A stretch of DNA of 64,000 bases, taken from assembly GCA_002245135.1 (NCBI GenBank), contig NGBS01000585.1, positions 124,001 through 188,000 on the forward strand, in the 5' to 3' direction. Shown in pieces: positions 1 through 47,403 of this stretch (position 1 is its first letter; each line of letters opens with the position of its first letter). This DNA is from Proteromonas lacertae. Taxonomy: Eukaryota > Sar > Bigyra > Opalinata > Proteromonadidae. Under the pieces are notes generated by a model, which was given only the letters and a program-made list of their open reading frames with translations, made no database searches and had not been told where the DNA came from. The position numbers and the translations under genes were made by a program.

Positions 1-3000
1 TATCTATAATCAGGCCATTCATCACTAGAATCACCATTACTTTCAGCATATTCTACTGCAGCTTTCCATAAATATATTGAACTGTAACTTGTTTCAAAAA
101 TTTCACCTAATAAAATAGTATTTTGATAAATCTGTTGAATTGAGTATGAAAAAGCACCTGAAGTTGTACTTTTGATTTCTGATGTATAAGGAGAAACGAT
201 ATACGTACCTGAAAGTTTATTTATTGTTTCTTCACTCAAATCATGATAATCATAATTCATAAAGAATATACTGATAGAATCTTTATCAATTGTTGTATCT
301 GAAAAATAATAGGATAAAAACTTCTCTTGTTCTGCACCAGAGAACAAATTAATACATACAAACCTTTCTACATCAACAAATATTGATTTGAACTTGGCAA
401 TAATACCTTCCAAATCATTAGGATTATATGGAGTGAAGAAATGAGAACCAATATAATTAAAACCCTTTTCAATTGCCATATTCTTTATAACATTCTCCAT
501 TATAGTTGTACTATTAGCAGTACTACCAATAACAAACAAATTCAACAATTCCATAGAATGAATATAATTCAATGTTGGTTCAGCTTTTTGGTTAATTGTA
601 ACACCAGTACTTAAAACATATGGAGAACATGTAGCACCATCTTCTCTTCCTAAATAGTCAAATATAACATCACTATTTGCAGCTTCTAAATATCTTTGAG
701 CTTCAGTTCTGCACAATGGAGTCATACAACCAAATATTATCTTCAAATTATCAGTGGATGTCATTATTGTTCTCATTTGCGCATATACTTTTGAAGATAT
801 AATAAAGTAATGATCAGCAATTAATAATCTACCTAAAATACCATTTCCATCATTAATTTCATCAATTGCTATATTCTGAATTAATAAGTTAAATTTCTCA
901 CTTTGTGAACCAATATCACTTTCATGTATAAATGCAACATGAATTGGATCATTATTATGCATTTCACCTAACTCTTTATTCCAATCACATACATAACCTC
1001 TTAAATCTCCATTCCATTGATTATAAAGATCTGGATCAATATATGCTGTTGGATGCCAATTGATTGTAATACTTCTATCTTGAATTGTACCTGAATAAAT
1101 CAATCTTTTCATTACATTATTACCTGCTAATTCAACTGATTCACTTGGAGTATCTATATAATAATCATATAGCAAAGAGAAAGTATCATAGTCAAAACTA
1201 TTAGAATCAGAAACTAATGATTTCCAAAACATTACCATTGTAAATGCAGTTTCAAATTCACTTCTAAAATACTTATCACTACCAATATTAACATGTACTT
1301 CTTGATTAAACTCAGTAGCCAAATAAGGTATTGTAAATGATGTTTTACCAGATACTCCAACAGATTCAAAGTATGTACCTATTACTTGATTACCATTTAA
1401 ACAAGATGGTTCTACTTGATACAGCAGATTCTCATCAAAGAGAGTTGATAATACAACCCAATTGGGAGGTATCATATTATAATTACATAAATCTTTAAAC
1501 AATGATATATATAGTTCATTACTATTCAATGTTGCTATAATATATCCTTTACTATTAGCAATAGATAATCTTTGAAGTTGAGCTGCATTATTATGTCCAC
1601 TATACTTGATATTACCCATCAATAATATATTCAATTCACCTAAATAATCTACCATATAATCATTCAATTTCTCAGTATAATTATCAGGTGAATATACCAA
1701 TACAACTGATGTTGTTTCATCTAATGACTTTTTAATTGCACTTATAGCTATTTGTGATGGATTTAATTCACCAGTTATTACATTTGAAGGACATTCAATA
1801 CTATAAGTATGCCCACAGAAGAAGAAGAATGCTTTTTTATCTTTCATTATTGATGTAATTATTTCATAATGATCTGGACTAACACCTCCAAATATATAGA
1901 CAATACCATTGTTTATTGCTTTGTTTATCAATTCTTCATATTTAATTACATCTGATTGTACATCATATATTTTATAATTCAAATAATAACCTAACACTTG
2001 ACCATTATTATTCAAATAATTAATTGCTGATAATAATGAATCAAACACTGGAGTTTCACTTTCTTTTAAACTGCCAGACAAAGACAATATTATTCCTATT
2101 GTATAAGTATTTACAGCCTTTCCATTACCTATTTGAACATCATCAAAATTACATTTTACATAATTACCATTTTCGTCATTATCAAATGCATCTGGAGTAT
2201 GCATATATTCAGTATAATGTAATAAATGACTAACTACATTTTCATCAATAAAAGAATCAGATATAGTTCTTCTTAAATAATTATTTTCAGCAAATTTTAT
2301 TTTACCCTCTGGACTATTATACTCAATTGATGACATATATTTTCTTACCACACTTGGTTCAAAACTCTTAGCCATTTCAACACCATTTGACCATATCATT
2401 ACACTTGAATATAATGAGGATGTAATATCATTAATAGAAGTTGTTGCTTTGTTAATTCTTTCATTCATACTCTCAGTAAATGCAAGACCTTCTGGTGTTT
2501 CATCCTCTGCTCTAAAAGCTTCAAATACTTCAAAATTCCTGTATTGTGATAATATAATTGTACTTGATGGTTCAACTACTATTAATCTTACATCTGGTTC
2601 ACCTAAACCATATTTTGTTAAATTCGTCTCAATATCAAAGAAACCTTGTGAAAAACCTCTATAGATTATTGCATTCTTTAAATTTCCACTTTTTGTAATG
2701 TCTTCTTTCCACATTTCTAATCTTTTACTAGCATCTTTTACATTATCATAGTAAATAGCATTAACTGATAAATCATGTAACTTCTTATAATAATATTTAC
2801 CAGATTCTTCAAATACCTTTTCAGCTGTAATTATTAATATTTCATCATAAAATCTATTTCTAATTGCATTCAGTAAAGGTTCATCTAATGATACATGATG
2901 ACTACTGATCATCACATTTTCATTACAATAACCAATATCTTGAACTAAGAAATGGAATAGTAAAACATTCTTCTCTTTCAATAAAGGTTCTACAGCATTT

Positions 3001-6000
3001 CTACATTCAACTCTATTAACAAAGAACACTGCGGGGGTGTTTTGGGTATTTATATAAGTTGATAATAAAGAAATACAAGTATCAGGATCAGATTTTGAAT
3101 CATAAATTTCTGGCTTTAATCTATAACCAAATACTCCACCTTTTTTATCATTCAATTCATTTGTTGCTAATTTAAACGCATCAACAGCACCTAATGAAGA
3201 TTCAGATAAACTTCCTGTGATTGGAGCGATTAATAATACTCTTGTAGCCAATACATCATATTGTTCCTTATTAATATCTTTAGACCATGAACATTGTTTA
3301 CCATATGTTGCTTCAATATTCCAATTCCAAGCCATTGGTGTTTGTAGATTATAGTTCTCAGAAACAGTAACAATATCTATTCCATCATCATTATATCTTG
3401 CTATAAAGATTGGAAGTTTTGGATAATGAGTTTCTGTCATTTCGATCATACCTGTACCATCTTTAACAGAAGTTGTTATTAACTGATTTCTTATATCTTC
3501 AATGTTATCGTAACTATTCAAAGCAGTAACTGCTTCATAATAAAACATTACTGATGCATAAGCTGCATTTGTACCAACAGTAGGTTTTGGTAAGTTTCCA
3601 AAATCAGATGTTTTTCTTTTAAACTCTTTATTTGCATCATTATCCAAATCATAGAAATAAGTACCAACTAAATACACACTACCTCTTTGTTCTTCAGTAA
3701 ATGTTTCATAATGTTCAAATTCTGATATTATATCAATGAATCTATATTTCATAACGTCAACACGTAAACTAACACACATTCTTAAAAATGAATGTATTTC
3801 TTGCATATCAGTAACTATAAACATTATTACTCCACCATTTTTAAGATTTCCATTTGTAATACGTGTAATCATATTAGTTGAAACAGGATTTGTATCATCT
3901 ATAGTAATAGTATTTTCAACTACAAATAAACCATCAGCTTCATATTGTACCATTTCACCTAAGTTTTGAGCAATACTATCACCACTTTTTACAATTACCA
4001 TTGATTTTGTTACTTCTAATGTTATTAAATATTCAAGAGTATCAGCAATATATTGATTTGGAACAGGTCCAACATAGAATGTATATTTATCACATTCTTG
4101 TCCTACTGATTTTCTTGGGAAGAAAAATATTGCATTTGATACTTTAGCTATTGGTTGGACTAGTGATCTACAATTACCATCATAACAACCAACAACAATC
4201 TTAACTAACTCATCATCAAATAATTCATGAGCTTTTGATTCAATTAAAGATACATCAGATTCATAATTGCCAATTTTTGCTACTGGCACAGAACCTAATA
4301 TATTTCCTTTAGATATTATTTCTTCAAGAGCAATTAAAACACCAAGTAAAACAGGACGATGAACATTTGCATCTGAACCAGTGGTTGATAATAATATTCC
4401 TATCTTTATAACAGAATACACTGTCTTTTCACCGTATTTAGCTTTACAGTTATACATTTCATTTGGTCCTCTAAATATAGATAAATATGGATCAACAACT
4501 ATATCATTTGTAGTAGAAAATTCACTAAGTAATTGAATATTTCCATTTTCATCTAAAGCTACTTTCCTAATTATAAATGGCGAAGGAATATGATTATTAT
4601 CTTGAAATTTGAATCTTCCTAAAGGTGTAACAACAGAAGTTGTATATAATTGTGGTTCCACAACACTAATATTCATTGTACCTGAATTATCAATAATATT
4701 TTCTAATAAAACCATTGCTGAATAAGCTCTAGCCATTCTATCAGATAATGAAGTCAAATAGGAGAATCTCTTATGCAAATTATTTGTAACAGTTTCTATT
4801 TGTTGAATTGTTTCAGGATCTCCTTTCCCTTCTCTATCAAATCCAGAAACAAAATAATGCCCTACAGCAGCTTCACCTAAATCGTCGATTTGTACAGCTG
4901 TTAAATCAATGCTTAAAATTGGATATAATGCTGAAGATATTCCTTCATCATACATTTGTTGTAATAGATTAGGCGCAGCAACACCTTCAAGCAATGATAA
5001 TATAAGTGCTCCTTCTGGTGCTTTTATTGTTGTTACATCTAAAATTGATGATAAATCATCTGTTTCATCTGGAACTGTAAACTTATAAGTGAATTCTACA
5101 GAGAATGAAGATATTTCACGTTGAATAAATTCAGCAAATGATGATGAATAATGTGATGTACTATATATCAATACCAACACACCAGGATTATTCTCCATAA
5201 TCCAATTATAGGTTGGATAATAAGAAACAAATGGTAAACCCATATTATATCCACTATATAAACAGGAATCTCCTTCATAATTCATTGGTAAAAATAACAA
5301 ACCACCAAAATCTTCAACAGTTTTATATATTGCATCTCTTATATCATTTCCCCATCCTCCAAAATATATTTTAATACCATATTTGTCATGAATCTTTAAA
5401 GTATTTACAATCGCATTCTCTGCTGATCCACCATCTGAGTATATAATCAAAATCAAATAATCACCATTTACTCCTCCTCTATTATTAATATCAGAAACTG
5501 CAGATAATAATGTATTTACAAAAATAATACCTACTTTATATAGATAAGTGGCTGTAGGAATCATTGCTGCAAATAATGTAGAACTTCTTACTAAATCACC
5601 ACCTAAGTGTTCTTGCCAATTACAATATCTATAAACATTAGTATTAAATGAAATTCTATAAGGGTTAGTAGAATAACCACCTGTAACTAAACTTTTGTAT
5701 ATTAAATCACCATTTTCATCAATTGTAGTAATCATAATTGTCTCTGAAAAATGATTAGTTTCTTCCATACTAAGATCACCTAAACAAGATGAAATTTTTG
5801 TCAAATATAATTGGTTTCTTACTGTAGAAACTTCTGAATCAGCAGCATCAGTAATAGATTGAAGCAAAAATGCACAAGCAACAAGATTCAATTCATCATA
5901 GAAATTTGGTGTATATTCACCAGATCCTAATACTTCAACATCATGAAAATATGAACTACACCTTTCACTTCCATCATTTGCAAATGGAGTATAAACAATT

Positions 6001-9000
6001 TGACCAGCTCCACCTTTATCAAACTTTATTTGAGTATCATCAACAATATATAAATGATATTTTTTACTACATTCTATTGGTGTCAATCCTTCTGCTTTGC
6101 ATACTTTATCATTAAATATTTCCAGAAAATCGTTAATGTATTTATTATGTAATAATACAATTATATCCTTAGAAAATATAAATCTATTTCTAATTTCTAT
6201 CAACTGTTTCTTCATTTCATCTTTATAATCACTTGATTCAACATCAATTTCTGCTTCATATGTAAAATCATTATTAACATCAACAAAAATACTTTTCAAA
6301 AAATCAGCTCTACTTCTATACAATCCCCTTTTAGTATATATAAAATGTGGGTTCTTAATAGATTGATAAAGTAAATGCATTCCAATTGGATATATTTCTT
6401 GATATGGCGTTGTTGACAAATAAATAATCTTCTCTAAACATTCTTGGCCAGGATCAACACCAGTGTAAAATAGCACAGAATCAATTGATTCAAAAGCAGT
6501 AACCATATAACTTTTAACTGTTGGATTGCATGCTCCAATAACAAATGGAAATCCTCTAGCCTTCAAATCAATAATTAAAGAAGAAGCATCATTCTTTATG
6601 GTTGGACAGTTATACAATTCATATTTTATTATTGTTCTTCTAATACCTTCATCAATATTCAAAGCTTCTATTTTAGTAACAGCATGTTCATATGTCAAAA
6701 AAGAAGCATAATTGTCAATATCAGTCAAATCTAAAACAAATGCTATACCAATAAATATCTGAGGTTGTTTAATTACATAAGGAGTTACAGAAAAATCTGT
6801 ATATAGGAATTCATCGTTATTCCTTAAGTTATAATATGGTACAGCTGTAATACTAGTAGTCATTTGCACAACAATTGTTTCTTTAGTTTCTTCAATATGT
6901 ATTAAGAATGGATAAACATTCATATAATTTGATCTTGACAGACGAAGTGAACCAACTGGACAATCAATTGTATTATCATAGAAATATGTCCTTAGGTTTA
7001 CAGCAGTTGTTTTATATGAAACGCCTAATGCTTTCAATGCAGTTTGCATCAACAATAATGAATTATAAAATGACATTGTTGTATCATCCAATAGTGTATA
7101 AGCATTTCCTTTATATTTTTGTACATTATTAACTAGGGCTGTATTTAAAATTGTAGTAATTTCAGGTGAATAAGTAGAATAGTAATAACAATTTTTAAAT
7201 AATGTTTGATTCTTGGCGTTTAAATATACTCTTATTGTATAATCCATCAACAATATTTTGAACCTTGAAGTATCATCAACTTCTCGATAATAAGCATCTA
7301 AGAAATCTTCAGTATGAGTAAATATTTGAGAAATAATTATAGTTTTTTCACATCCTGCAGTGTCCTTTACTATTTTTTCTACAATCTCATCAAAATTCGA
7401 ATTATCCTTAACTACTATATCAACTTTTGGTGTTATTCCTAAACCTTGAAGATACAATTTTAAATATCCACCAATATTTTTATTATTAAATGTATTATCT
7501 GATGTTAATAAAACACAATTAAGTGTTTGTTGTAGAAAATAGTGTAAAGGTAATGAGAATAATTGGTTTGGTACTGAATTCACTTGTATTACATTTGGAT
7601 ATTCTTCTTCACCACCACTTATCAAGATTGAAAACAGCAACACATCATATTTTATTAACAAATCACTTATTGCTTCTCTCTCAGTTTTATCATTTGTTCC
7701 TATCAAACACAATGGATTATCGGATATCAACATTCCTTCAACTTTTTCTTTTAAATCATTCATGTCATTCTCATCCCATCCAATCAAGCTAGTAACAACT
7801 CTTTTACCATTTATTCCACCATCTATATTAAACATATCTATTACTATTTCTAATGTATCCAATACAGTAACCCAAGATTGACTGAATCTATTAAATATCA
7901 TTCCAATTCTATAAGGTTCTTCAATTCCTGTAATCATTGAATTATCTGAAAAACTACATAATTCTTCAGGTCCACCAAATGCAAATGACTCTTCTACAAA
8001 TGTCGGTTCATATACTAATTCAGCTTTACCATCTGATTGTAATCTAAATATTTTAATATCACCTCTTGCCATTGCATTTGTATATATTTCATAAATACCA
8101 TAAGAAACTGAACTTGGAATTGTATGATACATATATTCTCTATACAGTGAAGGAGATGTTGAAGATGATGATAATATAGACTAAATAATAATAAACAAAA
8201 TATAAATACATCAATATATAATTCCATTACATTGTAGAGAAATGCCATTGTTGAAGTAATTGGAATATTCTCATTAAAAATATCACTTAAAAACTTATGA
8301 AATGTCTCTAAATTTTCTGATCCTAATTCATTACTACTATGCTGAATCATTAAAGATCCGCTGACCTATTTATAACAATTACATAAATAAATAAATAAAT
8401 ACTAAATCATATCCTAACCCTTTAGCTATTAGTTGATTCATATTCATTGCTATTATTTCATAATTGTTCTCTTTAGTGATATTCCATTTTTTAAATGTTT
8501 TAAATAATACTTCCAAGTATGATGATTCACAAGTAAGAATAACGATTGTTCCTTCTATTCAATAATAATAGAATAATATTTATTAATACGATCTTTAAAA
8601 GTACTATAAATAGTAGCAGCTGTTCTATTTGCTTCAGCTTCTGTTGTATTATCAATATTCATTTCCAATATTTTCTCACCATCCATTTGCTGAGATATAA
8701 AATATTCTTTCATGTAAATTCTTGCAGATTTACCAAACAGATCTGTTGTTCCAACTATTGTAGAGTTTTCATAACCTGAGTTTCTGGTATATTTGTATAT
8801 TTCTCTTGTATAACTTTCTTTATTGAAATTAGCAAATAATACATTCAAATAACACACTCTACCTTCGTTTGGTCCGAAATAAATAATCTCAAAGTTATTT
8901 TCGTTTTTAAATTCTGTATAGATTGCTTCTCTATCTTCAGAACTTGTTAATATAAAAAGAGTATTAACATTTTTATTCTCAAAATAATCACGAATTTTTG

Positions 9001-10443
9001 GAATAATTACATTCAATCCTTTATCTCTATTTATTAAAATAGGATGTAATTCTTTACCAAGAGTATCTTTCTATTCAATTTATAAAACATAATATATATA
9101 TATATATATATATATACATTAGCATTTAAATCATCAAATAATAAAGTGATAAAAGTCCATAATATTTTTGATTCATAAGTTGTCATATCAGATAATATCA
9201 TAACAGGCAAATAATCAGGATTTATAAAACCAGTATCAGGATTTTCACTATAATCACATAACTGTTCGTCCATTATTGACTCATATTGATTAGGTTCAAT
9301 TGAATTATCAATGGGTATTGTATAATCATAAACATACTTTGCATTGCCACTTTTTTCAATAATGTGATAGATATAATGTGTTGTAGCCATATAATGACTG
9401 TCTAATAATACGATTTCACCACTTGTGTAATCAAATAATTTATCATATACGAATGTAAACATTGTAAATATCTTTGGAGTTGGAACAGCACTATCAGCAT
9501 ATGCTAAAATATCCAACATAGCAAATGCAATTGAAGCAACATCTTCTCTTGCTGTAGCTTTAAATGGTTCAAATAGTATTTTAAATAATTTATTTTTTTC
9601 AGTATCTAAATCTTTATTATATGATGTGATTGAATAGGTTGAAGCTAAATCAGCTATATTAACACCAGGTGTTTCAAGTACATTTTTCAATGATATACCA
9701 CCTTCATACAATAACATTGGAAATTTATCTATATCATTATAATCTGTCGCTCTATCTGTTTGTATTTTTATTAAATCATCTGCTTTCTTCAACAATAATA
9801 ATGTTACAACACCTTCAGTTTTATATTTAGACAAAACATCAATATATTCAGTTATTTTATCAGCTGTAATTGTTTCATTATGAATATCAAATACTATTTC
9901 ATCGGCGTATAAATCTATTTCGTGTAAAATATGACTATAATAAAAATCACAAATAGCAACTTCTTTATCGAAGATTATTGCATAATACTTTGAATGTAAT
10001 GAACTGAGAATAAAAATGGCTATTTAAACAGAAATAAACAAAATATAAAATATACACAATTCCATTGGAGTTATAACTGATATACCAGGGATCTTATTCT
10101 TTGGACAGCCACCATCTGTATATAAATCGTAACACCATAACACTGTGCCATTACCAGCAATATATTCTTCCAATTGCTCATTTACATTTTCTGCACAATT
10201 TGCTATAGCCACTGTCATTGAATCATCTGCTAAATCTTTAGCAAAGGTGGGAGAATCTTCTGCTAAGTCAGTTACGGCAAACTCTGTAGCCATATTTTTA
10301 CTTAATTCATCAGAAAATGCTTTAAGTATATCGTAATTAACACTATGTAAGTGTGGACTTATATACCCTATCTTAATAGATGTGGCAAATGAAATAAATA
10401 TAAGAAATAACAATATTTTAATTTTATTTCTTATTAAATACAT
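1..10443 (-). CDS. Giant class C GPCR-like receptor A, ligand-binding part (C-terminus beyond window)
   Basis: A secreted-domain receptor gene running off the left edge. Exons by eye: 10443-10056, 10019-9118, 9070-8605, 8554-8403, 8365-8210 and 8180-1, giving about 3,414 residues in one frame. The start at 10443 gives a signal peptide (basic MYLIRNKIK, then a hydrophobic core ending near FATS). Nine successive units of about 380 residues begin near 10380, 9215, 7910, 6760, 5610, 4405, 3240, 2110 and 960. Several open with Leu/Ile/Val-binding-protein-like strands such as IKIGILLSTTGS and TIGIILSLSGSL, followed by NxxGGI(N/L)G helices. The edge sequence IYLWKAAVEYAESNG matches IYLWKAAVEYSTDY of the receptor at 35694-47403, about 100 residues before that protein's first membrane helix, so a 7TM domain should lie outside the window. 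Head to head with the Rab fusion gene. The ligand is unknown. I did not check every codon of the last exon. Confidence 0.85.
9071..9117 (-). repeat. (TA)n dinucleotide run inside a receptor A intron
   Basis: The 47-base intron between exons 2 and 3 of receptor A consists largely of TA repeats, with GT and AG ends intact. Such runs recur in other introns here (for example 61553-61588). Confidence 0.8.
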
Positions 10444-19535: not shown

Positions 19536-22500
19536 TTATACTCTAACTCCTTCTTTATTGTGTTTTTCAGAAACAGATATTCTCCTACAAATTGATTCAT
19601 GTCTTGCTGTTTTTTTGAATATTCCAGTTCTTAATAAACAAAATAAAATCACTAATATCACGATTAATCCACCTGCTACTGATCCAATTGCTATTCCAAC
19701 TATTGCTCCACTATTTACATTACATTCACTTTCATCAATTACACTCCAAACACCTTCATTATTATCAATCATTAAACATTTTCTTCTCTTCATTCCACTT
19801 TTTGCTCCTCCACATTCTATCAACACTTCTTTTCCTCCTTTCTCAGCTGGAGTTCTTGGAAATCCAGAATCAGATTCACAAAATACTGCATCAAATCCTA
19901 TTTCCACTTCTACAGTCTCAATCTCTGTTGATGGAGGATTTCGAATTGTAAAGGTATATTTCGTTTTTTCAACATATTCTAATGGTGATCCATATATTTC
20001 TCCAGATTTTGAATCTAATGATATGCCTTTAGGCAATTCTGGATTTACTGCAATTTCAAGATTTGTTCCAACTGCAACAAATAAATATTCTGATTTTATT
20101 ACTTCTCCAAATTTAAATGTTTTATTTGATACTTTACTGGATGGAACTATCACTGGAATATCAGGAATTGAACATGATAATATAAATGAAAATGAAACTT
20201 GTTTTCCACTTCCACTTATTAAGATTGTGGTATTTACTGCATCAAAACTATTAGATATATAACCACTTATTCTTCCTTTCGAGGAATCAAATTTCAAAGT
20301 TGAGAATGGAAGATTGGGTATGATTGAATAAACTAAATTCTTTCCAGTTATTCTTCCTAATTCTAATCCATCATATTCTTTTCCACCTTCGATTGCTATA
20401 TTATCTACATGTCTAATTATTACTGGTTCTACAGATTCTTCAACATTTATTGTGATTGGATTGGATATTTCACCAGCATCATTATGACATTTGAATGTAT
20501 ATGATTTATTACTTGGTGGTTCTACATTTACTTTTCCACTTATTATTCCACTATTTTCATCAAATTTTAATCCTTCAGGTAATGCTGGTTCAATTGAATA
20601 TAATATAGTTTTTGCAACACATTCATATGGTTGAATATCATTATAACTCACTCCAAATATCATTATCACTTCTTTTTCATATTTTATATTATTCGGTTTG
20701 ATTGGTAATGTCACATTCATTTCAATTGTTATATCAATATAATCAACTTCATTTGAAGCTGTGAATTTACTTCTCATAGAATTCTCTTCAATCACCATTC
20801 CAGAAATTAAACCACTTCTTTTGTCTAAACTCAATCCATTTGGTATTTCATCTACACTATATTCAATATTTTCACCTATCACATAAAATAATTTCAATTC
20901 TTTATATTCTTTACCAGCTTCTAATATCACTGATTCATTACTCCAGATTTTTATTGGATTTTTAGAAGGTAAAACAGTTATGGATATTTCAATTGTTATA
21001 CCTTCATCACTTCCTGAATAAGCATTATTAGCTTTGAAATAAACTGGTTTTGATGATTCTTCAATATATGCTTGACCAGATATTAAACCAGTTTTATTAT
21101 CTATTCTTAAGCCACTTATTTCAGGATTCATTGAATAAAATACATCTTTTCCTGAAACTGTGAATAATCTCACATTTTCATAAAAATCACCTGCTTTGAA
21201 TCTATAAGATGTTTCTTTACTAATTAAAGATGGACTTTCATCACATGTATTTTCGATTTCATTCCACCATTTATCATTATTACAGTATAATGTTCGATTT
21301 CCTGTTATACCTGATGTTTTACATCCAATAGTTATTTCTGTTCCAGTTACAGTTTCTGGTATATCTTCTATTGCTTCACAATATCTTATTGGACATAAAT
21401 GGAAATTTATATCATATAAACTAATTGTGTCACTATTTGATGCTGTTATATTGAATCTAATTGCTGAATACATAATAGTTGTACTGTAATTATTAAACAC
21501 TCTCTTTCTTTCAGGATAAGTAATATCTTTAAAAGAGCCAATTAAAATCCATTTTGAATTGTAATATCCTTCCACTGAAAAATCTTTTGGACCACCATTT
21601 CTAGAATATACATAAATACTAAATTGATTGAAATATGTATGAAAATGATCTTTATATCTCATTATTGCCCAACCAGGGATTGTGTCAGTATACCATTCTG
21701 AATTAGGGTTTTCATCAAATCCATAAGCAACAGGATACATTGCTGATACGGTATTTGTTTCAGTTACTCTTTTAGCATATTTATTAAGAATTAAACAATC
21801 TTCTTTACTTCCAATTATTCTTAATAAAGATGAACTTATTTCAGGGAAATTTTCTTCACCATTGAATTTGTGTAATTCAATCGAAATTTCAACTGGATTT
21901 TCTTCTAACCAAGGAATTGGAAGAATAAACACTTCATCAGTTAAACCATCATATCGATTATTTGCCATTGTATCTGGAGATATTTCACCATTTGGTAAAT
22001 TATTTCGAAAGATTTCTTTTCCATTCACTTTTATTAATATTCCACTTATATAACTCACTTTTAAAAGCAAATCCATTATATTTATCTTCATAATCAAATA
22101 CATCTATCTTTCGAATATAAATCACATTTCCAGATACTTTGTTTAATTCAGATAATTTGGATTTTGACCATGTTAAATGTTCAGCATTTGGATTATCCCA
22201 ACCATTTTCATATTCAATTGAATTTTCCCATTCTGTATTATAATCATAATCCAATGTTGAATGGAAATGTCTTTTCTCTCATATCTTGTTCACTGACTAA
22301 TGTTGTTCTATCAACTGGAATTCCATATACTAATACATCTATAAAACCATCACCATAGCCCAAATATGATAAACTTCCTCTATAGACAGCAGTATATTCA
22401 TGATTTGATAAACAATATTCATATTCATAGATATTATTTCTTTCCCATCCTTCTTCTGATCCTTCTAAATCAATTATTGAAGTTTTATTCTGATTATCCA

Positions 22501-25500
22501 TTTCAGATGTTTTATAAAGAGATATTCCCCAATCTTCTGGATATGTATTTGAACTTCCATTCACATAAATAGAAATTAATGTTTTTGATTGTTTTAAACA
22601 TATTTCATTTATTGATTCATCATAAAATGTTAAATTTAAATACCTTGTTGTTATGCCATTCACATTTGATCCTGTTATTGTATATAATTGTTTTGGTGAT
22701 TCTTTTGTTACTACACCAGTTATTTCACAACTCTTTTCATCAAAGTGTAAAAATGAAGGTAATTCTGGTGATATTTCACAATTTTCAACCATTTTTACTT
22801 TAGGTACAATTCTAACTACTTCATTTAAATAGTATTCTTCTTTACAACTTTTAGGTAAATCTATTATTGGAGATTTTACAATTGTATTTATATCAATCGT
22901 ATTTGCGCTGTAGTGTTTTGCTTCAATTCTATCAGCAAGTTTTCCATCAGTGTAAAATTCAAACAGAAATGTTCCATCTCCTCTTTGAAAATCATTAAAA
23001 TAAAATTTATAATCTCCAGGAATTAGACATAAAACTGGGAAATATAATGGAAGTGATCCTGCTGGAATTGTATAATCTCGAATTGTTTTTTCATTTTGAT
23101 ATTGAAATTCACATATTATCTTCTCTCTCGGATCAATTGTATCTACTACTTTCACAAAATGAGATTTATATTCACCAGAACATCCACTTATTACATTTGT
23201 TATAATTTTTCGACTTACATATTCACTATTTGAATAATAAGCTCGAATTTCTAATTCATAATTATTTAAATATTCGGTTGCTACTATTTTTACACTTCCA
23301 GTATATTTATTATATGTAAAACCACCTGGAATAACTGGTAATTCATAAAAAATAACAGATCCACTTTCAATACTTATCAATAAATGACTTTCATTTCCAA
23401 TAAACAGATTCAATTCTTCTACTATTATTCCTTCATTATCTAAATCTTTTATATGTAATCCTTGAGGTTTTACATCTCCTATCACTTTTATAGATATGGC
23501 TGTGTTTACTGTTGAACCATCAGATAATTTACCATTTATCATATAAGATTTCACATCTTGAACTGTTGTAGCTGTTCCTCGAATTGTGCAACCTGATAAC
23601 TCTAAACCAGGAGGTAAACTTGGCATTGATTCACACTCACTTATTATTTCATCTCCTTCGATAAATGGAATATTGTCAGATATTCGATTATTCACTATAT
23701 ATACTGCATAACTAACTCGATATTCAAAATCTCCTCTTGGAACAAAATATAAAACATCTTTCAATTCTTTAAACTCGGAATCTAACTCATTCTTATAAGA
23801 TAATTTTATTCCACTTCCTCCTACATTCTTCATGTAATTCACTCTTATGAAGTGATATCCTTCACTCAAATATTTTGTTCCTGTTTTGCAACTCCAATCA
23901 TGAATTCCATTGTGATTGATTATCTCAATAAAATCAATAAATAACCAAGATCCTTGAACAGATGTTAAATTGAATGTATAATTTCCTGACGTTTCTATCT
24001 TTATATAACCTTCCCAATTTACTCCAAATTCACTGGCAAAATTGGGAGTTAAACCATCCCAAATTGATTGGATTGGATTATATTCTTCATTTATTTCATC
24101 TTCTAATCGAATTATTTCAGTTGTTACACCTTCACTTGAAGGAGTATAAGGATTTAAACAACTTGTGTCAAATTCATCAGATTTTAGATAATAAGCAACT
24201 ATTCCTTTTATATATTTATCAATTATATCAATATGGATTTTCACTTCATTTGTTGTGGATGTTTCTGTTGAACATTCCACTCTTAATTCTAGATTTATCA
24301 CTTCATTTATTTGTCCTTTCAATATATGGTTTGTAACATCAACTACTATTCGATCATCTCCTGTTTTACATTCACTTGCTACTCCTCTTTCGATCTTAAA
24401 TGGAATTTCAAAATAAGAATTCATTGGCATTGTAAAATATTCACTATCAAATGTTAAATGTGATACAACATTATATTCTACTAATGATTGATAGAACTGA
24501 ACTGGCTCTTCTATTTCTTTACCAGGTGGTGTCCATTTCATCAAAAATTTATATGTAGAACTATTGTTCATTTCATTACATTGAGTAGTAGAAGTTGATG
24601 TAATACACATTTCCTGTTTAAAAGAATAATGACCAACTATTCCGATTTTATGATATCCTGATGTTAATTGAGTTGAAACATATTTATCTGATTCTTTCCA
24701 CACACTACATTCAGTGGATGTGTAATATTTTATGAATTTTCTAACACCATGTTCATAAATTTGGCTGTATTTATTATTATCAATGTAAGAGTCAAATCTA
24801 GTAAAATCAGAATTTAGATGAAAAGAGTATTTACCACTCTTTGGAGCATATAATGCTCCTTCCATTGTATAATTCCAATAGAATACATTATGACTTGATA
24901 AAAATCCATCTAATTTATTATCCCATACTGAATAAGCATCTTCTCCATCTAATCCATCTAAATTGTCTATTGTTGTTTCTTTACTGTTATATATTGTAAG
25001 AATGTCATTTACACTACCACACATAAAACTATTTACATGATCTACTTTTATATTCAATCCAGATCTTATTACTTCATCAGCTTTTGTGATAACTATTGTG
25101 GTTGAAACACTACCAGCTGGATTTTCACCATTTATTGTTATTCTATTATTATTATTAAATATCATTTATATATACGTTATTGGATTTTCAGGAGGTAATA
25201 ATTCATCTATTTCTAATATTCCATCATCAGAGATTGATATTGGATAAGAACCAGATGGATTAAAACTAATTGACCAACTTTTCACTTTCTTGTCACTTTT
25301 ACAGGGAAATGAATCTGTTTGTTTTGCTCCAATTGCTAATTTAACTATTCCACATGTCATACTATTGGGTTTATCCCAAACTATACAAGTAATTTGAAAT
25401 TTATACCTTTCATTTCGATATTAGCTTTCATTACTACATTATCTGGTGTCGTTAATGTAATTGTATAAGTAGATTGATATTCTTCAAGCGGAATACCACT

Positions 25501-35693: not shown

Positions 35694-38600
35694 ATGAGGA
35701 GCTGGGTTGTTGTTGATATTATATTTTTAATCTGTTGCGTTACTTTAAGTAATGAATACAAAATTGGCTTTATAAAATCTAAATATGATGATACTAATCT
35801 TATAGATGTCACAAAAAAGCATATAGAAACTGCTAATAAGATCGATCAACTAGGTACAAAAATAAATTTTCAAGAATATACTGATGATCAGGCAGAATCG
35901 TCAATTAAGTCCAACAATCCTGATGAACCAACAGAATTTGTATGTAATTGTGCAGCTGATAAAATGGATTATTATTTGAGTATCGTTAACAATACTAGCA
36001 AAATGATTTGGTGTTTATCACCCTATGCTCCCTATAGATGTAATCGTTCATTTCTACCAGGTGTATCACCCAATAATGCTGTTCTTTATAGTATAATATG
36101 TATTTACAATGAAATTAATAGCTTCTTACATAATGGCTTCAAAATATGATGCAATAGCATTTATAGGTGGAAATAATTTAGTTGATGAATATTACATACC
36201 AAGATTTGAAGCACTAGGCAATAATATGGGACAACATGTGTTTAAAGCATTAGAAATGAGTAAAGTAACTGAAAGTACAATAGATGAGTATGTTACTGAG
36301 ATATTAACATATGAAAGTTGTATTATTTATACAACAGTTAAAGATGATGCATTACTTACTCATCTAATAAGTAAAATAGGTGGTGAAGATCATACTAAAT
36401 ATACATTGATGTTTTTATTAGGAGGAATGTATGAAGATAATATTCTCCACTATAAAGCAGATATTCAAGATTATTTTATAGAAAAAATATATAAAATAGA
36501 TGATGATAATGATAATTTTAAATTGTACAAACAATATAGAAGCAATGATTTAACAAGCCATACAATATCTGAAGAAATGTTAATGTATAATAATAATCAT
36601 CACCATTTATATTTTTGTAAATAGAATGTCTTATATATCTGCATTAACTCATATTAGAACATTTGTAAACTCAGATGAAACGGTAAACTTGGTAAGTCAA
36701 GCATACAATCGAGAAATTCAATATGCAGGAGGTGAAATAGCATTTTTACCAGCTCAATCTACAGCTGTAACAACTTATATCTATAAATTCAAAGATAATA
36801 CAGGTAGTCAAGATTTAATTTATACACTACCTAATTCACAATCCATTGAACCAAATTATATTCATGGAAAAGTATTAACAGAGACATGCAATTTCATTAA
36901 GAACTCTGCAACAGGTGTTAATAGAAATACACCAGTGGTATTGTTTCAAATTGCTGATGTTAATACTGCAGATAAAAAAGACTCCTCTATTTATAATAGG
37001 ATATTTTTGGATTTTTTGATAGAGAGAGTAAATGATGCTAATGGTGTTTTAGGCTCTTTAATAAGTGTTTTATATATCAATTATTATAATAATTCACAAA
37101 TTGTTGAAGAGATTATTGATAATTATGAGATTTATCATCCCTCTGCTATAATTATTGATGTATTACCACAAATTAGAGATTATATTGTTAAAAGTATATA
37201 TTAAATAATATAATAATAATTCATATATAACAATGAATAGATACTGAATTTTTAGGTGATAATCTATTATATTTCTATATGGGATATAATGAAGGTGGAT
37301 ATTGTAATAAACATATAGTCTCAGCTTCTAATGTGAATAATGATATTTTGTTACCATTAAGATCATTTGCTAGAGATAAAGGTTATAAATCATTAGTATT
37401 ATTAGGATCTGATGGAAAGTATAATATTATTCTATTATTATTAACTAGTTATGGAGAATCTACCTATGCCAAAATGTATGAGAATATGAAAGCTCATGGA
37501 ATAAGTTCTGATGATATTTTAGGTAAGAAATTAACAAATAATACAAAACAATACTGTGATGATATAATTGATTCAATAAACAGATTCTTTCCAGATGGAG
37601 GAGCTATTTATAGTGTTGCAGAAAAGAATTATACTGAATGTATTCTCAAATCAATACATAATCATCCAAATGTTTCTCTTTCAAAATATAGTTTTATATC
37701 AGCAACAATTGATGAATTACAGATGAAGAATATCGGATGGGAATATGTAGAAGGAATTTATTATTTGACTTATTATTGGAATGGATCACATCATGAAACA
37801 ATTGAATCTTTTAGAAAGTATTACAGTAGTTTAATGAATGATGAATATCCTACTGTTAATTCAATTGCTTTGTATTATAATATCATTTATACATGGATAT
37901 ATGCAATGACTTTATCAGCATCAACAGAAGCATCAAATTATTTATCATATTTATTCCATCAAACATTAGATAGTGTAGTAATAAAACCATATGAAATTTA
38001 TACAAATGGAATGGGTCAATGTGTTTTAAGTATTTTAAAGATTGAAGATAAACAATCGATATATGATTCTAATAGTATGTTTGCTCAAGAAGCAAAAGTA
38101 TTCAATAATGGCAGTTATTACTGTAATTTGAATAATGATCCACCCATTAGTCAATCTATATTCTATACAGTTGGTGTGTTGTTTAATGTTCATGATCCTG
38201 AAGGTTTAACAAGATTAGATGAAATAGATTTAATCATTAATCTAATCAATCAAGATGGTGGTATAAATGGAAGATTACTAGTCACTAATTTTACGAATTA
38301 TGATGGAAATCCAGATCATATAGTAGAAGCGGCAAAACAATTGGTGTTTGACAGTAATCTATTATGTTTTATTGGAGGTAGAACAAGAGAAGAAAGAGAT
38401 GCACTTGATGATTGGCTAATTGAAGTTGATAAATTAATGTTTTCTATATATCCATCTACTGCTGAAGTGAATTATAGAAATATTATACAAGTTGCTGCAA
38501 TTCCAAATACATTAATTAATGATCAGCTGTTTATATCTCTTGATAGATGTGATGTTATTACTATTTTAGCAATGAATCAGTCAATTCAATATGAATATCT

Positions 38601-41600
38601 ACAATATGTAAATAATGTGACAAGTTACTATGGTTTGAAAATGAATGATATTATTACATTTACTAATTTGACATTAGGAATTGATGATTTTTATCCAATT
38701 CTATCAGCAGTGAATGATTCATTCGCTACTTCATATGATAAAAGAAAATGTGTAATTTCATTGGTTGGAGATAATACTGATAATATGATTCAAGCATTTG
38801 CTGAGTATTACACAACTGATGATTGGAGGTTTTTAATATTTGACTTTTCTATTACTTATTATTTGAATTCTGTTAATGGTAGTAATTATGACAATCATTT
38901 TATTGGTACTTCATATTATTCATTGAATTCTTTCACTGCTAATATTGTTATGAGAAATAATATTGATAATTATAAAGGTAATTCAATGTTGTTATTAAAT
39001 GAATATTCTGTTTCTGATTATAACTCAATGTTATTAGTTGCATTCGCAATGGATGGAATGACTGATGTTTCTGCAACTACAATTAAAACCAATCTCTATT
39101 ATGCATCTATAGAAGCTCCAACTGGAACTTTGCGTTTAGGATTGTCCAATTATTGTGTAGGTATTTGTACAATGTGTGAAATGCATGGTGCTATTGGTGC
39201 TGTTGAATTTCATACAAATCCAACTCCAATCATTCCAAGACCATTTTATTATATTGTATATTATATATTTGTTTATTTTATATCTAATAGAATCGTGATA
39301 AGAATTATTATACATCGGATAATTCATTGAATGGAGAGAGTAAAATGGTTGAATTAGACACGATTGGTATTCTATTATTGATGGATTATAATGAAAAAAA
39401 AACATTTATAAGATATGCATTAGCTCAAACAATTGCAGATATATCAAACTATCAAGCAAATATCAAAAATAAAGAAGTGGTAGTTGAATTAGATCGTTGT
39501 CCAACAACCAAAGATAGAGCTTCTGGCTTATTATTCGATTATCATAATCGTGGATTTAGAATTGTGGCTGGAGGATGTGATTCAACAACAAGAGATTTAA
39601 TGAGAAAAGCAATTGAAACATTAGATATGATTCTATTATATTGGGGATATAATACTGGTCATGATTGTTCAAAGAATATATTTTATTTAGCAACATCACC
39701 TTCACAAGAGATTATACCTACTACATTACATTATTTCCAAACAGTTAATAGAGATTCTATTGTTTTATACTCAACAGATCCAAAATATGAAATAAGAATT
39801 GGTATATTGAAATCTATGTTTAGTGATTTTGAATATAAGATTAAATATGAAGCAAATGTTGATTATACTGATTTTGAAAAGAATTTGTATTATCATTTAC
39901 TTCATTTCGATATTGCTTGTCCAGATGGTTGTCCAGTTTTAGTTTTATTAGATGGTGATAATGCTGAGACATTTTTAACAGTTTTTTATCAATACTTTAT
40001 TAAAAGATATTCAACAAGTGAAGAAATTTTAGAACATTTTCCAGTGTATATGTATGATAATTCACATACAACTTATTCATTAGGGAATATTACTAAAGGT
40101 GTAAATGTGTACAGTCCATATTTAAGAACTTACTCTGAAGAAGAGATATTATTCCATACCAATTATGAGACAATTGCAAATTATTCAATTCCTAATTATT
40201 TCGATGCTGTGGAATCTGAATCATTAATGTGGTTGTTGGATGTACTGAAAGATGCAACATCATTAGATACAGCTGATATTTTGAAACAAGCTTATATCAC
40301 AACTAAAAAGACAGCAATTGGAACAATTGTAATGGATATAAGTAATTCAATTTCTCAGAGTATTTTTTATGGAGTTGTTGATGAAAAAGGTGATGTTATT
40401 TATAAAGCAACAGTTAGTAATAATTGGGCAGGTGAACCTTGGAGAGATTCACTGAATAGATTTGTTGATAACAGTTGCGATTGGAAGAATGGTATTGGTG
40501 AAAAATATACAAGAAATGTGTTAAGATATGCTGTTGTTATTTCATCTATACCAGAATATAAATCAGAAGGTGTTGTATTCTATCAAGCATTATACGCTGC
40601 TGGTTCTAAGATCAATAAAGAAGGAGGCATTAACGGAATGATTTTAAATGCACTAGTTTTTTGTGATGGTAATGATAATAAGACTGCATATAGTCGTTTC
40701 ATTGACTTTTATAATAGAAATGTGACATTTTTCTATGGTGGTTGGACAAAAGAAGTAAGATATGGTTTAAATGAAGCAGCTATTGCTTCAAATTCAATGG
40801 TATTTAGTCCAGTAAATCTAGTAGGAGAAGAATGTTACACAAATTTGTATTTTACTAGTCTTACCTATCAGTCATTCTTCTTCTTTATTCCTTGGATATA
40901 TCAAATAACTAAAGGTAGTATGATATTATTATATAGTGATTCTGAGTTATCCAGAGGATTTGCTCAATCATTTATTAGAGAATTTGCTGTATATAAAGTG
41001 TCATTGCTGTTAGAGTATCAATTACCATTAGATAATGAAGATACTGATGGTATTGCTGAATTAATAAAAAGAGAATCACCTGATTATGCATTAGTATTGT
41101 CTTTCTTGGAAGGACCATCCAAGACTGCATTATTCAGATCATTCGAAAAGTACAATATGAGACCACCTACATATTATATTGTTGGTGTGTTTATAACTGA
41201 ACAAGATGTATTAGAAATTGGTAGTATAACGAATAATCATTATTATCTATCACCTTATGTTGAAACTGAAGAAACAAAACAATCACAAGAAGACATGATG
41301 AATCAAATCAAATCAATATTTAGTTATTATGAAGGTTCTACTCCTGAATTAGTTCATGGTTTTACAGCTTTAGAAATTGGTGCAAGTAATGCTATAAGAA
41401 TTGGCAGTACTGACCCAGCTAAATTAAGAGAAGCATTATATACATATGATGTTGAAACACCAATCGGAAAGGTCGTATTTAGTAGTAATAACATGATTAA
41501 TAATGTTGTATCATTTCAACAAGCAAAATGGGATAATAATGAATTTTCTAAAGTTTCTGTTTATGATTCAACTATACCAATTATTCCACAACAATATGGT

Positions 41601-44600
41601 TCAGTTTTATTTGATGATCCAATTATTCAGTGTGATATGAAGAATGACAAATTGATAGAACATAAAACAATAAAAATAGGAATATTAGTTAGTTTGACAG
41701 GAAGTTTAGAATCAACACACACTCCACTCTGTTTTGGTATTCAAACTGCTGTTCATGAATTATTTAGTATTGGAACAGTAAATGATCATTATGTACTTAT
41801 ACAATTTGGTGATTATGGATCTAATAATAATAAAATAAGAGAAACTATAGCTAAGTTGTATGATGTTGAAAAAGTAGGAGCAATAATTGGATGTACAGAT
41901 ATAGAATGTAAAAGAATAGCTCAAGAAGAAGCAAAAAATAGAAATAAGTTGTTCTATTATGTGTCATTGTCTGTAGGTCAAGAATGTGATTATAATACAT
42001 TTTATATTGGATCTGTTCCAAACCAATACATTTCTAGAGGATTTGAGTTTTTAATTACACAAAATTATCCAAAATTTGCATATTTGATAGCTGATAATGA
42101 TGAAGAGACAATGAAATTGGTTGATATAATAAAAGATGCATCAAGTGGTTTGTTTTCTTTAGAAGAACCATTTATTATATCAAATGAGAATTATTTATCA
42201 GTTGATATTATTAGTGATATATATGACAAATTAAAAAATGGTGGAATTATTCTAACAGCTGTAAAAATAAGTCAATTAAAGAAATTTTTAGAGTATTATT
42301 CGAATATGAAGGTAGACCATGAGAAATATGCTGTTTATGATATATTATGTAATGTTGATGAATTTGATTTACTTCAACCTTCTTTAAGAAGTAATGTTTA
42401 CATAAGTGGAAGGTATTTTTACGATATTGATAATGATTATAATAAAAACTTCATTAGAACTACAAAGCATTATGTTGCTTATGCTGAACCAACTGCTATT
42501 GCAGAAGCTGCTTATTTAGCAGTTCATTTCTGGGCAAGAGCAGCAAATGTTTCTGGAAGTTTTGAAACTGATGATGTAAGAAAAGCAAGTTATGGTTTAG
42601 AAATAGAATCAGGAAGTGGTAAAGTGACAATGACAGATGATAATCATATTACAGCTGCTTTTTTTGTAGCAAGATTTAGTGAAACTGGAGAAACATATTC
42701 CACAGTTTATTCAAAATTTGATGGAGAAACTGCTTTAGCCTTGGAGTTGGAATATTGAATCAACATTTGCTAAGAAATGTACATTCTCTGATGGACCAAG
42801 TGGTAATTTTACTGATGTGAATGTAAGACGTGTCTTGTTAGTTGCATCTTTAACTGGATCTTTGTCATCCAATTCAATTGGTTTGGTAGATGCTTATCAA
42901 ATTGCTATAAATGAAATTAATGTTGAAGGAGTTGCTGGTTATACATTAAAAGCTGATATTTTTGATTTACAGTCTGATATTGATGAATGTAAAAGTTATA
43001 TTAAAGATTATATTGAAAATGATAAGAAGAATCCTCTAGCTATATTCGTATCAGCTCCTGATGCTATGTTTGAATACTATTATTAAATTATGCTGATGAA
43101 ATAAACAGTGATATGATTGTGTTTAACTATTGAAACACAAGCTATAGGTTATTGTCATGATTCAGTATTTGTTGCAGTTGAACATAGTACATTATATGAA
43201 GAAGTAATCAGTTTGATTAGAAATAGATTCTATGATAAGATATTACTATTAGCTGAAAGTACAAATAATATTGCTGGGTTTGTTTATAAAGAATTTAATA
43301 CATACTTTTCTGATGTTATATGGAACAGTAACATGAAATGGACTGCTAGTGGTATTTCTACAGAATTAGACTTATTAAAATCATATATATCTCAAATAAA
43401 AAATGGTCAAGGTTGTATTTGTGTGTTTGCATCAGTAGAACAGTATAAGTTATTAGTTGATACGATGGAATTGCTAGGAATGGACTATAAATCAGACTAT
43501 CATATTATAGTGATGGATAAAGGTAATTTAATAAGAGATAGTGGATATAGAGATTTTGAAATAGTATCATCTTATATGCAAGAAGAAGGATCACCTGAGA
43601 ATGTTGCATTTAAAACAAAGATGTATGAAAGAATATCTACTAGTAATCATATTTCAGATATTGCATCAAGAACTTATACTTCAATTATATTATGGTCACA
43701 GGCAATAAACTCAGCTAATAGTTTATCTAAATTGAGAATAAAACAGCAATTGAGAAAAGAGCAATTGCAATCACCAGAAGGTTTGGTTTATTTTGGTTCT
43801 AATCAATATCTAGCTAGAATAATGAGAATTTATTATGTTAATGATGATGATACAACTACATTAGTTCATAACACAAAAACAGCTCATTTACCTGAAGCAT
43901 ATGAGATAAAAATTGACAATGTAAAGAAATGTGATTTTGATAATATAGATATAGGTGAAGAAGGAAATCTACAGCCATATGCAATAGCATTTGTTTATTC
44001 ATTTACAGGTGCAAGTAAGAGATGGGAGATTCCTTTATTTGAGACTGTTATGACAACTCTAAATTTGATCAATAATGGAGGTGGTATATTAGGTAATTAT
44101 TTGACTTCTGAAGCATTTAATGCAGAATCTTCAGTAGAAAAATATGTAGAAATAATGACCGAATTAGTAAAAGGCAATAAATTTACATATATATTTGGTG
44201 GAAGTGATGCTGAGACATTAAAAGCTATTGGTCCAATATTTGATAATACAGAAAAGATATTGTTCTATACTGGAAATGCTTATGGTGATAAAAGTTATTC
44301 AAATGTAATAGTTTTAACTCCATCATTAGCATCACTTGCAGATGCAGTGTCAAAGAGAGTTTTAGAATTGTCAAATAGTGCTTATATAGTAGCATCAGTT
44401 GATTCTTTTTCAAAGCAATTTGATAAACTGATTTTATCAAGAATGACAAATCTTTTGATTTCTCAAAATGGTCATTCTGATTATTATATAGATAATCCAA
44501 CAAAGACTGCTAATGAGATAAAATTAGCATTGAAAGGAAGTGGTTATATTGTTAATGCAATATATAATGTTAATGAGAATTACATATTTTATGATGCAAT

Positions 44601-47403
44601 CTGTAAAGCAGGAATAGTTGGACCTGATTATATTATAATAAATGTTTTCTTAAATCAAAATCTCTACAAAAGATTAGATCCGAAATGTATAGAGGGACAT
44701 ATATTTATTAATTCCTATTTTGAAGCATTAGGTTCATATGAAACAAATATGTTAGGAAGTGTCCCATATCTATCTCCATTATATAATGCTGATTTTGGTA
44801 TTAGAGTTGGTGATATTGATCCAACAGCTGCTACAGAAAGTGCAGCAATTGCCCAATTAATATGGAAAGGAATTGCAGTGAAAGTGAATTCATTGGAATA
44901 TAATAAAGTGAAAGAGATGTATCATTATTCAATTGATACACCATCATATTCTGTAGAAGTTGGAACAAATAATTATTTAAAAAGAAGAATATTTTCTGGT
45001 GCAATTCAAAATGGAAAATTGATTATTGACTGGGGACCTGACAATTATTTCACTTCCACAGTTTATAATAAATGGGATGGAAAGAATCTCAAACAAGTTG
45101 ATGATTGGTCTGATAAAAATAAAGGAGAAAACTATGAACAACCCACTATAATACTTGCATTTTTGCATGAAAAAGATATAGGTGGAAAAACTGAACAAAT
45201 GTCAGCTTTAATCGAAGATTTAGCAGTGGAAGAAATAAATGATCAAGGTGGAATATTGAATTACCAATTGTTTGCTAGACATTATTGGGTGACAATAAAT
45301 GATGCATATAAAACAGTTAGAACAATTCAAGAAGAAGGAAATACAACAGCAATATTTGGTTGTTCAACATCAGAATGTAGAAATGAAGTAGAAAGATATC
45401 TTTCCATTTCTACCAAAGACATTCTATTTTTCTATTTAGGAAGAGATGATGGATATTTATGTTCAAAGAGAACTGTTACAGCTGGTGTATCAATTAATCA
45501 AAAAGTAGAACCATTAGTCAAATACTTAACAAATGTTGATTTGAAATATATTTATCTAATTGGACCAGCTAGAAATTCAACTTATATTCAATTTGAAGTG
45601 TTGAAAAAATCTTCAATAACTGAAGGTTATGAAATAGTTGGTGAAGCTGCTTTCAGTCCATTTAATACCGAATTTGTTAGTGCTTGTCTTGAAGATTTAA
45701 AATCAAAAGTTGAATTATACAAAAGAGTTGGTATTTTCAATCTATTCATAGCTAAAGAGAATGCATTATTCTTAGAAGAGTATGTAAAAGATACAAGTTT
45801 ACAAACTACAACATCATTATTCATATTTAATTATGATCCAGCTGACATATCTTCATCAATCAAACAATCAATAGATGGATCATTTATAATTGCTGGTTAT
45901 TCAGATGCAGTTAAAAATACAGCATCAGGAGCATTTAAATTTACATCAACAGCAGAATATCAAGATTCGATTGATTTATCTGAATCATTAGAAGTGGCAT
46001 ATAGTACAATCTATTTGTGGAAAGCAGCTGTTGAATATTCAACTGATTATAGTAGTGACGAGTGGCCTTCAACTGAATATGTTGGTTTATCAATCAAATA
46101 TATATCATATGATGCACCATCAGGAACTTTACAGATTAGAAATAACAACAGAGCTTATAGAACAATGTATTTATTTAGATTAAGTGATCAAGAAACAATG
46201 CAAATATATCCAAAACAAGGAGTTCAATATATGGTTGAAAGTGAATTGACTTATATATCCAGTAGTGATTGTGTATTTGGTAAGAATAAAGAATTATACG
46301 AATACAATCCTGCATTGCAGTATGTAACATATATATTATGTGGTATAAATGGTTTTCTTTCACTAGTTACATTGTTCTTCGTTTATATGTATAGAAATAC
46401 AAAGATTATTAAAAGTGCAAGTCCGTTGTTTTTATATTACACAGTTATCTCAATAATGTTAATTGCTGCAATTGGTATTGTATTTACATTAGCTCCAACT
46501 AAGAAATCAATATGTCTAGCTAGAATATGGTGTTTGGCAATATCAGTAGATTTCTTATTCAGTATTATGTTTTCTAAAGCATGGAGAATTCATAAATTGT
46601 TCAATAATAAAGAAATGAAAAGAGTTAAAGTATCAAATTTGATGTTATTGAGAATGATAGCTGTGATATTAGGAATACAAGTTGGTTATTTATTAGTATG
46701 GACGTTTGTTAAACCTTCAGAACCAACACAGACATTTTCAACAGGTTATTCAGATTATCTAAGTGATGTTTATTTACAGGAATGTACTGAGAATTATGTA
46801 TTTATAGTAATTCAATTAGTGGCTGTGTTTATATTATTTGGATGGGGTACTAAGTTAGCATGGGGTGTGAGAAATGCATCAGCTGAGTTTAATGAATCAA
46901 TGACTCTAATGTCAACTATTGGTGTAATTATTGTAATGGGAATTATCATTGTTCCACTGAATTTCTTGATGGCTGGAGAACCAGATACATTGTTATTGAT
47001 AAGAAGTTTAGGTATTGAATTAGGTGTTTTTGCTGTTTTAATTCTACAGTTTGGATCAAAAATTATGTATTTGTATGTATTTGAAATAGGAGGAACATCT
47101 ACATTTAGTGGTTCATTAGGAAGTAGTAAACAGAGTAGTGGAAGTAAAGGTGGTGGAGCAAGTAAAGTAGCTAGAAGGAATGTAGCTCGTGGTAGATTTA
47201 CATTGAAACCACATATTTTAATAAGAGAACCAATTGAAATGGCAACTATTTCTTGTCCTGATATGTTTTATATACCACCTGAAGCATTTCCTGGAAGTAG
47301 TAGTAGTGTAAGAAGAGCTAATAGTACAAGTAAGCATAGTGTGAGTGTTAGGAAAATGTCAGATAGAGAAGGGTTAAAATCTGCTTATTCAGCTAGAGGA
47401 TAA
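35694..47403 (+). CDS. Giant class C GPCR-like receptor B: nine ligand-binding domains plus 7TM
   Basis: Exons 35694-36090, 36122-36584, 36625-37193, 37241-39255 and 39291-47403, about 3,850 residues. A signal peptide (MRSWVVVDIIFLICCVTLS) is followed by nine periplasmic-binding-protein-like domains of about 380 residues, starting near 35750, 36930, 38160, 39350, 40520, 41670, 42820, 43970 and 45140. Landmarks are IKIGILVSLTGSL, RVLLVASLTGSLS and repeated GGINGR/GGILN segments. A seven-helix domain lies at about 46320-47090, with the class C-like SASPLFLYYTVI before TM2, the conserved Cys of KSICLARIW at TM3, and TM6-7 ending KIMYLYVFEIGG. A Ser-rich cytoplasmic tail follows. Frame breaks occur at about 42736-42742 and within 43083-43117; reading resumes in step with receptor A. 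The ligand and G protein are unknown. Confidence 0.85.

Follow-up and report, generated by a model that had tools for sequence, protein, structure and literature searches.

In a stretch of 64,000 nucleotides from Proteromonas lacertae (contig NGBS01000585.1, positions 124,001 to 188,000; hereafter the window, C356:124001-188000 in a eukaryotic assembly of 50.2 Mb and 1,181 contigs), we have identified a receptor locus (35694-47403, + strand) that encodes a signal peptide, followed by nine type I periplasmic-binding units in tandem and a single class C seven-transmembrane (7TM) domain. In the standard description, a class C receptor has one flytrap domain, and closure of this domain drives the 7TM core. 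We consider it probable (roughly 0.6) that the locus represents a family of giant class C G protein-coupled receptors, in which an ordered array of nine flytraps of the UrtA/AmiC type would replace the textbook single Venus flytrap. The signal peptide, the nine units and the 7TM core, the fixed order of the units across paralogues and a conservation that rises towards the membrane are all established at the level of sequence. The features of the locus are listed below, where E-values of the units refer to a family model built without the units of the window gene (nt, nucleotides).

35694..35750 (+): signal peptide MRSWVVVDIIFLICCVTLS, with the ATG at 35694, read from the translation alone
35754..36925 (+): unit 1, the distal tip, split by introns 1 and 2 (E = 2.4e-16; Pfam, none at E <= 0.1)
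36100..36121 (+): intron 1, 22 nt, GTAT...AATAG
36585..36624 (+): intron 2, 40 nt, GTAT...AATAG
36926..38151 (+): unit 2, split by intron 3 (E = 4.1e-40; Pfam covers the later part)
37194..37240 (+): intron 3, 47 nt, GTAT...AATAG
38152..39347 (+): unit 3, with intron 4 in its C-terminal end (E = 1.8e-49; Pfam match)
39256..39290 (+): intron 4, 35 nt, GTAT...AATAG
39348..40514 (+): unit 4 (E = 3.9e-52; Pfam match)
40515..41660 (+): unit 5, nearest to the bacterial urea-binding protein UrtA (E = 9.4e-64; PDB matches)
41661..42738 (+): unit 6 (E = 1.8e-82; the strongest Pfam match within its piece)
42730..43131 (+): region containing three frame breaks (near 42738, 43071-43083 and 43117-43131)
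42820..43971 (+): unit 7, containing two of the three frame breaks, the first lying in the preceding linker (E = 8.1e-63, with placeholder residues at the break)
43972..45138 (+): unit 8 (E = 7.4e-72; Pfam match)
45139..46323 (+): unit 9, membrane-proximal, the most conserved position (E = 1.2e-71; Pfam match)
46303..47061 (+): class C 7TM domain (PF00003), closest among solved structures to GABA-B receptor subunit 2
47062..47403 (+): cytoplasmic tail and stop codon (47401-47403), from the translation

Binding units and the 7TM core

The starts of successive units lie 1,146-1,226 base pairs (bp) apart and the units, as cut, are 364-395 amino acids (aa) long, in agreement with the original prediction, made from this DNA alone, of a single signal peptide followed by nine units of about 380 residues, recurring about every 1.1 kb, and a class C 7TM domain. 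Profile searches with each slice had been proposed as a check on the binding domains. They succeed for units 2-9, which are covered, partly in some cases, by Pfam Peripla_BP_5/6 matches to the raw open pieces of the window gene, but not for unit 1, where the same pieces yielded no such match at E <= 0.1. Taken per unit, Peripla_BP_5 (PF13433) is found in units 2-9 of the window pieces and in nine stretches of P0005, a database protein discussed below. All nine units of the window gene match the family model (E = 2.4e-16 to 1.8e-82), while nine shuffled controls gave E = 1.2 or worse; these controls, together with the position models described below, exclude a coincidental reading of the repeats. 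The training set excluded the window gene alone and retained its neighbouring paralogue (3..10023), and because the training units were originally found with a model seeded from the window gene, the independent support for the identity of the units is that provided by Pfam. The assignment of the units as type I periplasmic-binding-like domains, nine of them on one class C 7TM core, is thus supported by sequence comparison.

Comparison of the binding units with solved structures covered units 4 and 5. Unit 5 matched the PDB entries 8tg1, 7s6f, 8hic and 7s6e at E = 1.5e-16 to 8.1e-14, of which the UrtA chains 7s6f, 8hic and 7s6e account for E = 2.1e-15 to 8.1e-14, and it still reads like UrtA, also in the GGWT and YEG-EC stretches. 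Unit 4 exhibits a weak match to AmiC (1qnl, E = 0.0078). UrtA and AmiC, however, are free-standing, single-domain periplasmic proteins and not receptors.

The 7TM core was found where it had been predicted, with a PF00003 (7tm_3) match that scored 136.2 bits (cut-off, 33.5 bits; E = 2e-39). A Kyte-Doolittle scan resolves seven distinct hydrophobic segments within 46333-47046, and one extra segment, inside unit 8, narrowly exceeds the same threshold. The search of solved structures, in which 32 sequences matched, places the core nearest to GABA-B receptor subunit 2 (7c7q_B, E = 1e-16). Class C receptors are characterized, in a passage of PMC3727952, by basic residues at the inner end of transmembrane helix 3 (TM3) and an acidic residue at the inner end of TM6, and the translation of the window gene displays both, in SKAWRIHK and AEFNES. 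The match of unit 9 stops about 12 residues ahead of the first hydrophobic segment, and the Pfam results for the window gene reveal no nine-cysteine domain between unit 9 and TM1, i.e. by sequence the receptor lacks the domain that defines the mGlu/CaSR/T1R subfamily. It also departs from the usual class C state of one flytrap per chain, having nine, although the single domain is a matter of custom and not of strict definition. GPCRs in general couple to heterotrimeric G proteins, and the same genome encodes G-alpha proteins (12 matches, five at E <= 6.3e-71).

Family members and the fixed order of the units

The window gene is not a singleton but a member of an expanded family. The genome contains 132 PF00003 matches at E <= 0.001, 123 of them over the cut-off, some being fragments, copies or interrupted, as well as at least 112 matches to PF13433 (112 of 683 candidates scored). 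One paralogous nine-unit receptor lies in the window itself:

3..10023 (-): main frame of 3,181 aa, running past the window edge to a 7TM domain at C356:123022-123780

A second protein search, with this neighbouring paralogue as the query, retrieved P0005, a continuous protein of 3,886 aa that possesses a signal-peptide-like start, nine unit matches, a 7TM domain and a tail; P0001, P0002 and P0003, also found by protein search, are partial proteins with the same domains. In addition, the paralogous locus C283 presents nine units, the first in part, within one frame of 3,672 aa. A series of several separate genes is therefore unlikely, and the claim of the original prediction that the locus is a single gene, rather than separate genes with their own starts, is upheld at the level of a relative, P0005 being known as a database protein.

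An array of nine units fits 16 of 17 loci, including the window gene, two of them with caveats: the stretch fetched for C1043 ends upstream at 25000, which makes its count at least nine, and C994 displays eight matched units and one unmatched stretch of fitting length, its ninth unit being counted from the spacing. The first eight loci were chosen by their long open frames, three more were taken from the list and five were drawn at random from 45 of the 132 matches; four of the five random loci fit nine units. The count accepts partly matched units when their pieces are in order, unit 1 being partial in several loci, and disregards stray plus-strand matches in C624 (E = 0.0075) and C1089 (E = 0.01) and a weak match in C1089 (E = 0.036). 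Two groups of loci are close copies and hence not independent, namely C713, C140 and C356s, and C104 and C116.

Positions were assigned to the units backwards from the 7TM domain. In a set of 119 units (12 loci and five database proteins), the nearest relative in another gene occupies the same position for 108 units, compared with 14.7 on average and 34 at most in label shuffles; once close copies are dropped, the figure is 76 of 87 (shuffles: mean 10.5, maximum 30), and in an earlier set it was 78 of 84. Position models trained without the window gene assign the best score to the proper position for all nine window units. Within the window gene, pairwise identity among the nine units is just 10-19%, therefore they are not recent duplicates. 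The simplest reading of these sequence relationships is a single origin of the nine-unit array, followed by duplication of the array in its entirety.

Several observations weigh against this picture of a conserved nine-flytrap class C receptor. A PK motif in TM7 is given as another class C criterion in the same passage of PMC3727952, and in its place the window gene and P0005 exhibit FGSK and P0002 exhibits FGNK. One of the five random loci, C1089:64435 (64006-68349), shows no more than three recognizable units ahead of its 7TM domain. The lock of units to positions is weaker in the divergent loci C283, C624 and C1043 (18 of 23 units among the three, at 15-27% identity). Once close copies are removed, these loci also account for ten of the 11 mismatches, the remaining one being unit 2 of C158. 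Finally, the window copy, as assembled, is interrupted three times.

Frame breaks and the conservation gradient

The summed open pieces of the window gene encode about 3,860 residues, of which approximately 3,500 are extracellular. The predicted size of about 3,850 residues thus stands, but not as one open frame, owing to four short introns (22-47 nt) and, at unit 7, to three frame breaks, neither of which had been noticed in the original prediction. The introns, all with GTAT...AATAG ends, split units 1-3 and explain four frame changes. Introns as short as these, with an invariant 3' end, may be the rule throughout the genome. As a source of every frame change, however, introns were rejected: four fit the local signature and the three breaks do not. 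In a mechanical GT..AG search no GTAT...AATAG intron absorbs any of the three breaks near unit 7; the search returned seven solutions for the first break and three across the other two, all of them without GTAT...AATAG ends, and each would remove residues of an alignable unit. Between the last two breaks (43071-43083 and 43117-43131) homology is carried on in a third frame. Since the three breaks remain unabsorbed, the window copy as assembled encodes no single continuous protein. An intron of 35 nt with the same GTAT...AATAG ends was observed in the adjoining RTEL1-like helicase gene (window 29062-29028, - strand).

The window copy may thus be damaged, i.e. a pseudogene, or mis-assembled at unit 7. 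That it is a pseudogene of a genuine receptor family has a chance somewhat short of even: three breaks fall within about 400 bp with no intron of the local signature to absorb them, and internal stops occur in other family matches of the genome, yet the remainder of the gene, with its four introns, is open for about 3,800 codons, and the clustering of the breaks in one short stretch also fits a local assembly error.

In six sequences the mean identity at positions 1 to 9 is 20.4, 26.4, 26.8, 28.9, 27.8, 34.9, 34.5, 37.8 and 42.5%, with six pairs compared at position 1 and 15 at position 9. Between the window gene and P0005 identity ranges from 22% to 46% along the positions, and in the divergent loci C283, C624 and C1043 the gradient is weak. 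It is possible, if doubtful, that the gradient and the near-identical 3' halves of some copies result not from function but from 3'-biased, perhaps complementary DNA (cDNA)-mediated, gene conversion. When the DNA of C713 (L009/L017) is compared with that of C140 (L013/L021) in bins of 200 bp, most bins between unit 7 and almost the end of the 7TM part show 98.5-100% identity, apart from a drop to 84.5%, but over units 3-5 identity is only 55-68%, with patchy transitions; moreover, in nearly all of the 17 loci open frames are short over the first units and then extend to 1,400-3,200 aa. On the strength of this pattern and of the 5'-fragmented frames, gene conversion rivals function as an explanation of the gradient within the genome, and the 5' location of the introns is as expected if cDNA-mediated recombination had removed the 3' ones. 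The gradient is nevertheless also present against the database proteins P0005 and P0006, likely of another species.

Possible function and comparison with known receptors

If the locus encodes a nine-flytrap class C receptor, the protein would stand off the cell as a rod of units. Unit 9, which like the flytrap of GABA-B receptors adjoins TM1 with no cysteine-rich domain in between, could act as the actuator coupling the array to the 7TM core and the G protein, a role that fits its higher conservation; by analogy with GABA-B, a ligand closing unit 9 would shift the 7TM core and thereby activate the G protein. Units 1-8 would be position-specialised, some perhaps still binding small amide or amino-acid-like ligands, with the fast-evolving tip performing paralogue-specific recognition. 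The cleft-region signature differs at each of positions 3-9 and recurs in most close paralogues, position 5 being near UrtA.

This recurrence speaks against a stalk for reach or adhesion, in which most of units 1-8 would be past ligand binding and would form a fixed-length spacer lifting a recognition tip, with only unit 9 or a few units still sensing, since a pure spacer needs no position-specific clefts at positions 3-9. We regard such a stalk as unlikely, though it would agree with a unit number that stays near constant while the sequence drifts and with the fastest divergence being in the distal units. The few residues between the model ends of successive units are compatible with the stalk and with the nine-flytrap receptor alike. 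With about the same, rather low, probability, the family might constitute a repertoire of barcode readers: an ancient nine-flytrap receptor, with a binding speciality at each position, would have been copied into of the order of a hundred genes, its constant base signalling and its distal flytraps diversifying, with 3'-biased conversion, into many long multi-ligand probes. Less likely still is a multi-ligand coincidence sensor with its own ligand at each position and the 7TM core as integrator, a possibility suggested by the nine distinct position classes and by the GGWT and YEG-EC stretches kept in UrtA-like unit 5, but disfavoured by units 1 and 2 being the least conserved and by unit 1 of the window gene lacking a Pfam match.

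GABA-B receptors resemble the nine-flytrap family in the 7TM core, being its closest solved relatives, and in a flytrap that joins the 7TM domain without a nine-cysteine domain, but according to a passage of PMC12716839 they carry one flytrap per subunit, as opposed to nine of the UrtA/AmiC type here. The GABA-B subfamily is further characterized by obligate heterodimers and by the binding of GABA. Fungal and gut-fungal class C receptors are similar in their big lineage-specific expansions (78 in Allomyces) and in having bacterial-type binding domains on 7tm_3, as far as they are described in parts of PMC3251606 and PMC5168858, and those parts contain no description of a tandem array. Their N-termini, however, reach 1,667 residues in fungi (PMC3251606) and 1,600 residues in gut fungi, where the domains are of type II and none of the receptors described in that part of the source has an ANF domain (PMC5168858), compared with about 3,500 extracellular residues and type I units in the present case. 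The class C receptors of diatoms, which are likewise stramenopiles, have been placed near GABA-B and some carry a periplasmic-binding domain, but with N-termini of 40-730 residues (same passage of PMC3727952). Tandem binding domains on one signalling protein are known from the bacterial sensors EvgS and CdgH which, in the portions of the literature that describe them, have two flytraps and carry them on a histidine kinase or a diguanylate cyclase. Searches of an open-licence literature library brought up no tandem-flytrap class C receptor. If the proposed architecture is true, experiments could address the distance from the membrane at which ligand binding still gates a receptor, and the capacity of one chain to integrate several ligands, and bacterial-type amide or urea-binding domains would prove recruitable as an array.

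Other features of the window and the genome include two long frames at 19536-25165 (- strand) that possibly encode surface or adhesin-like proteins, their putative domains being Ig (He_PIG), PA14 and GLEYA, and FHA and cyclic-nucleotide-binding domains in adjoining frames at 12023-13652 (- strand). The PA14 and GLEYA matches and the appearance of the ribosomal RNA had suggested a fungal host, which was rejected: the genome yielded a single chitin synthase match (PF03142), gut-fungal primers gave no clear match, and HSP90 makes a stramenopile likely. Of 8,000 HSP90 candidates 7,732 passed the threshold; among the 120 matches listed, six show 99% and three 91% identity, and those with a legible organism name are oomycetes, Placidida and a Cafeteria-like entry at 74-77%, except for four with plant or insect names at 62-74%, one of which ranks first by score. 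Contig C357 (L006) contains a ribosomal RNA repeat unit of about 7.65 kb, whose small-subunit gene is AT-rich and divergent.

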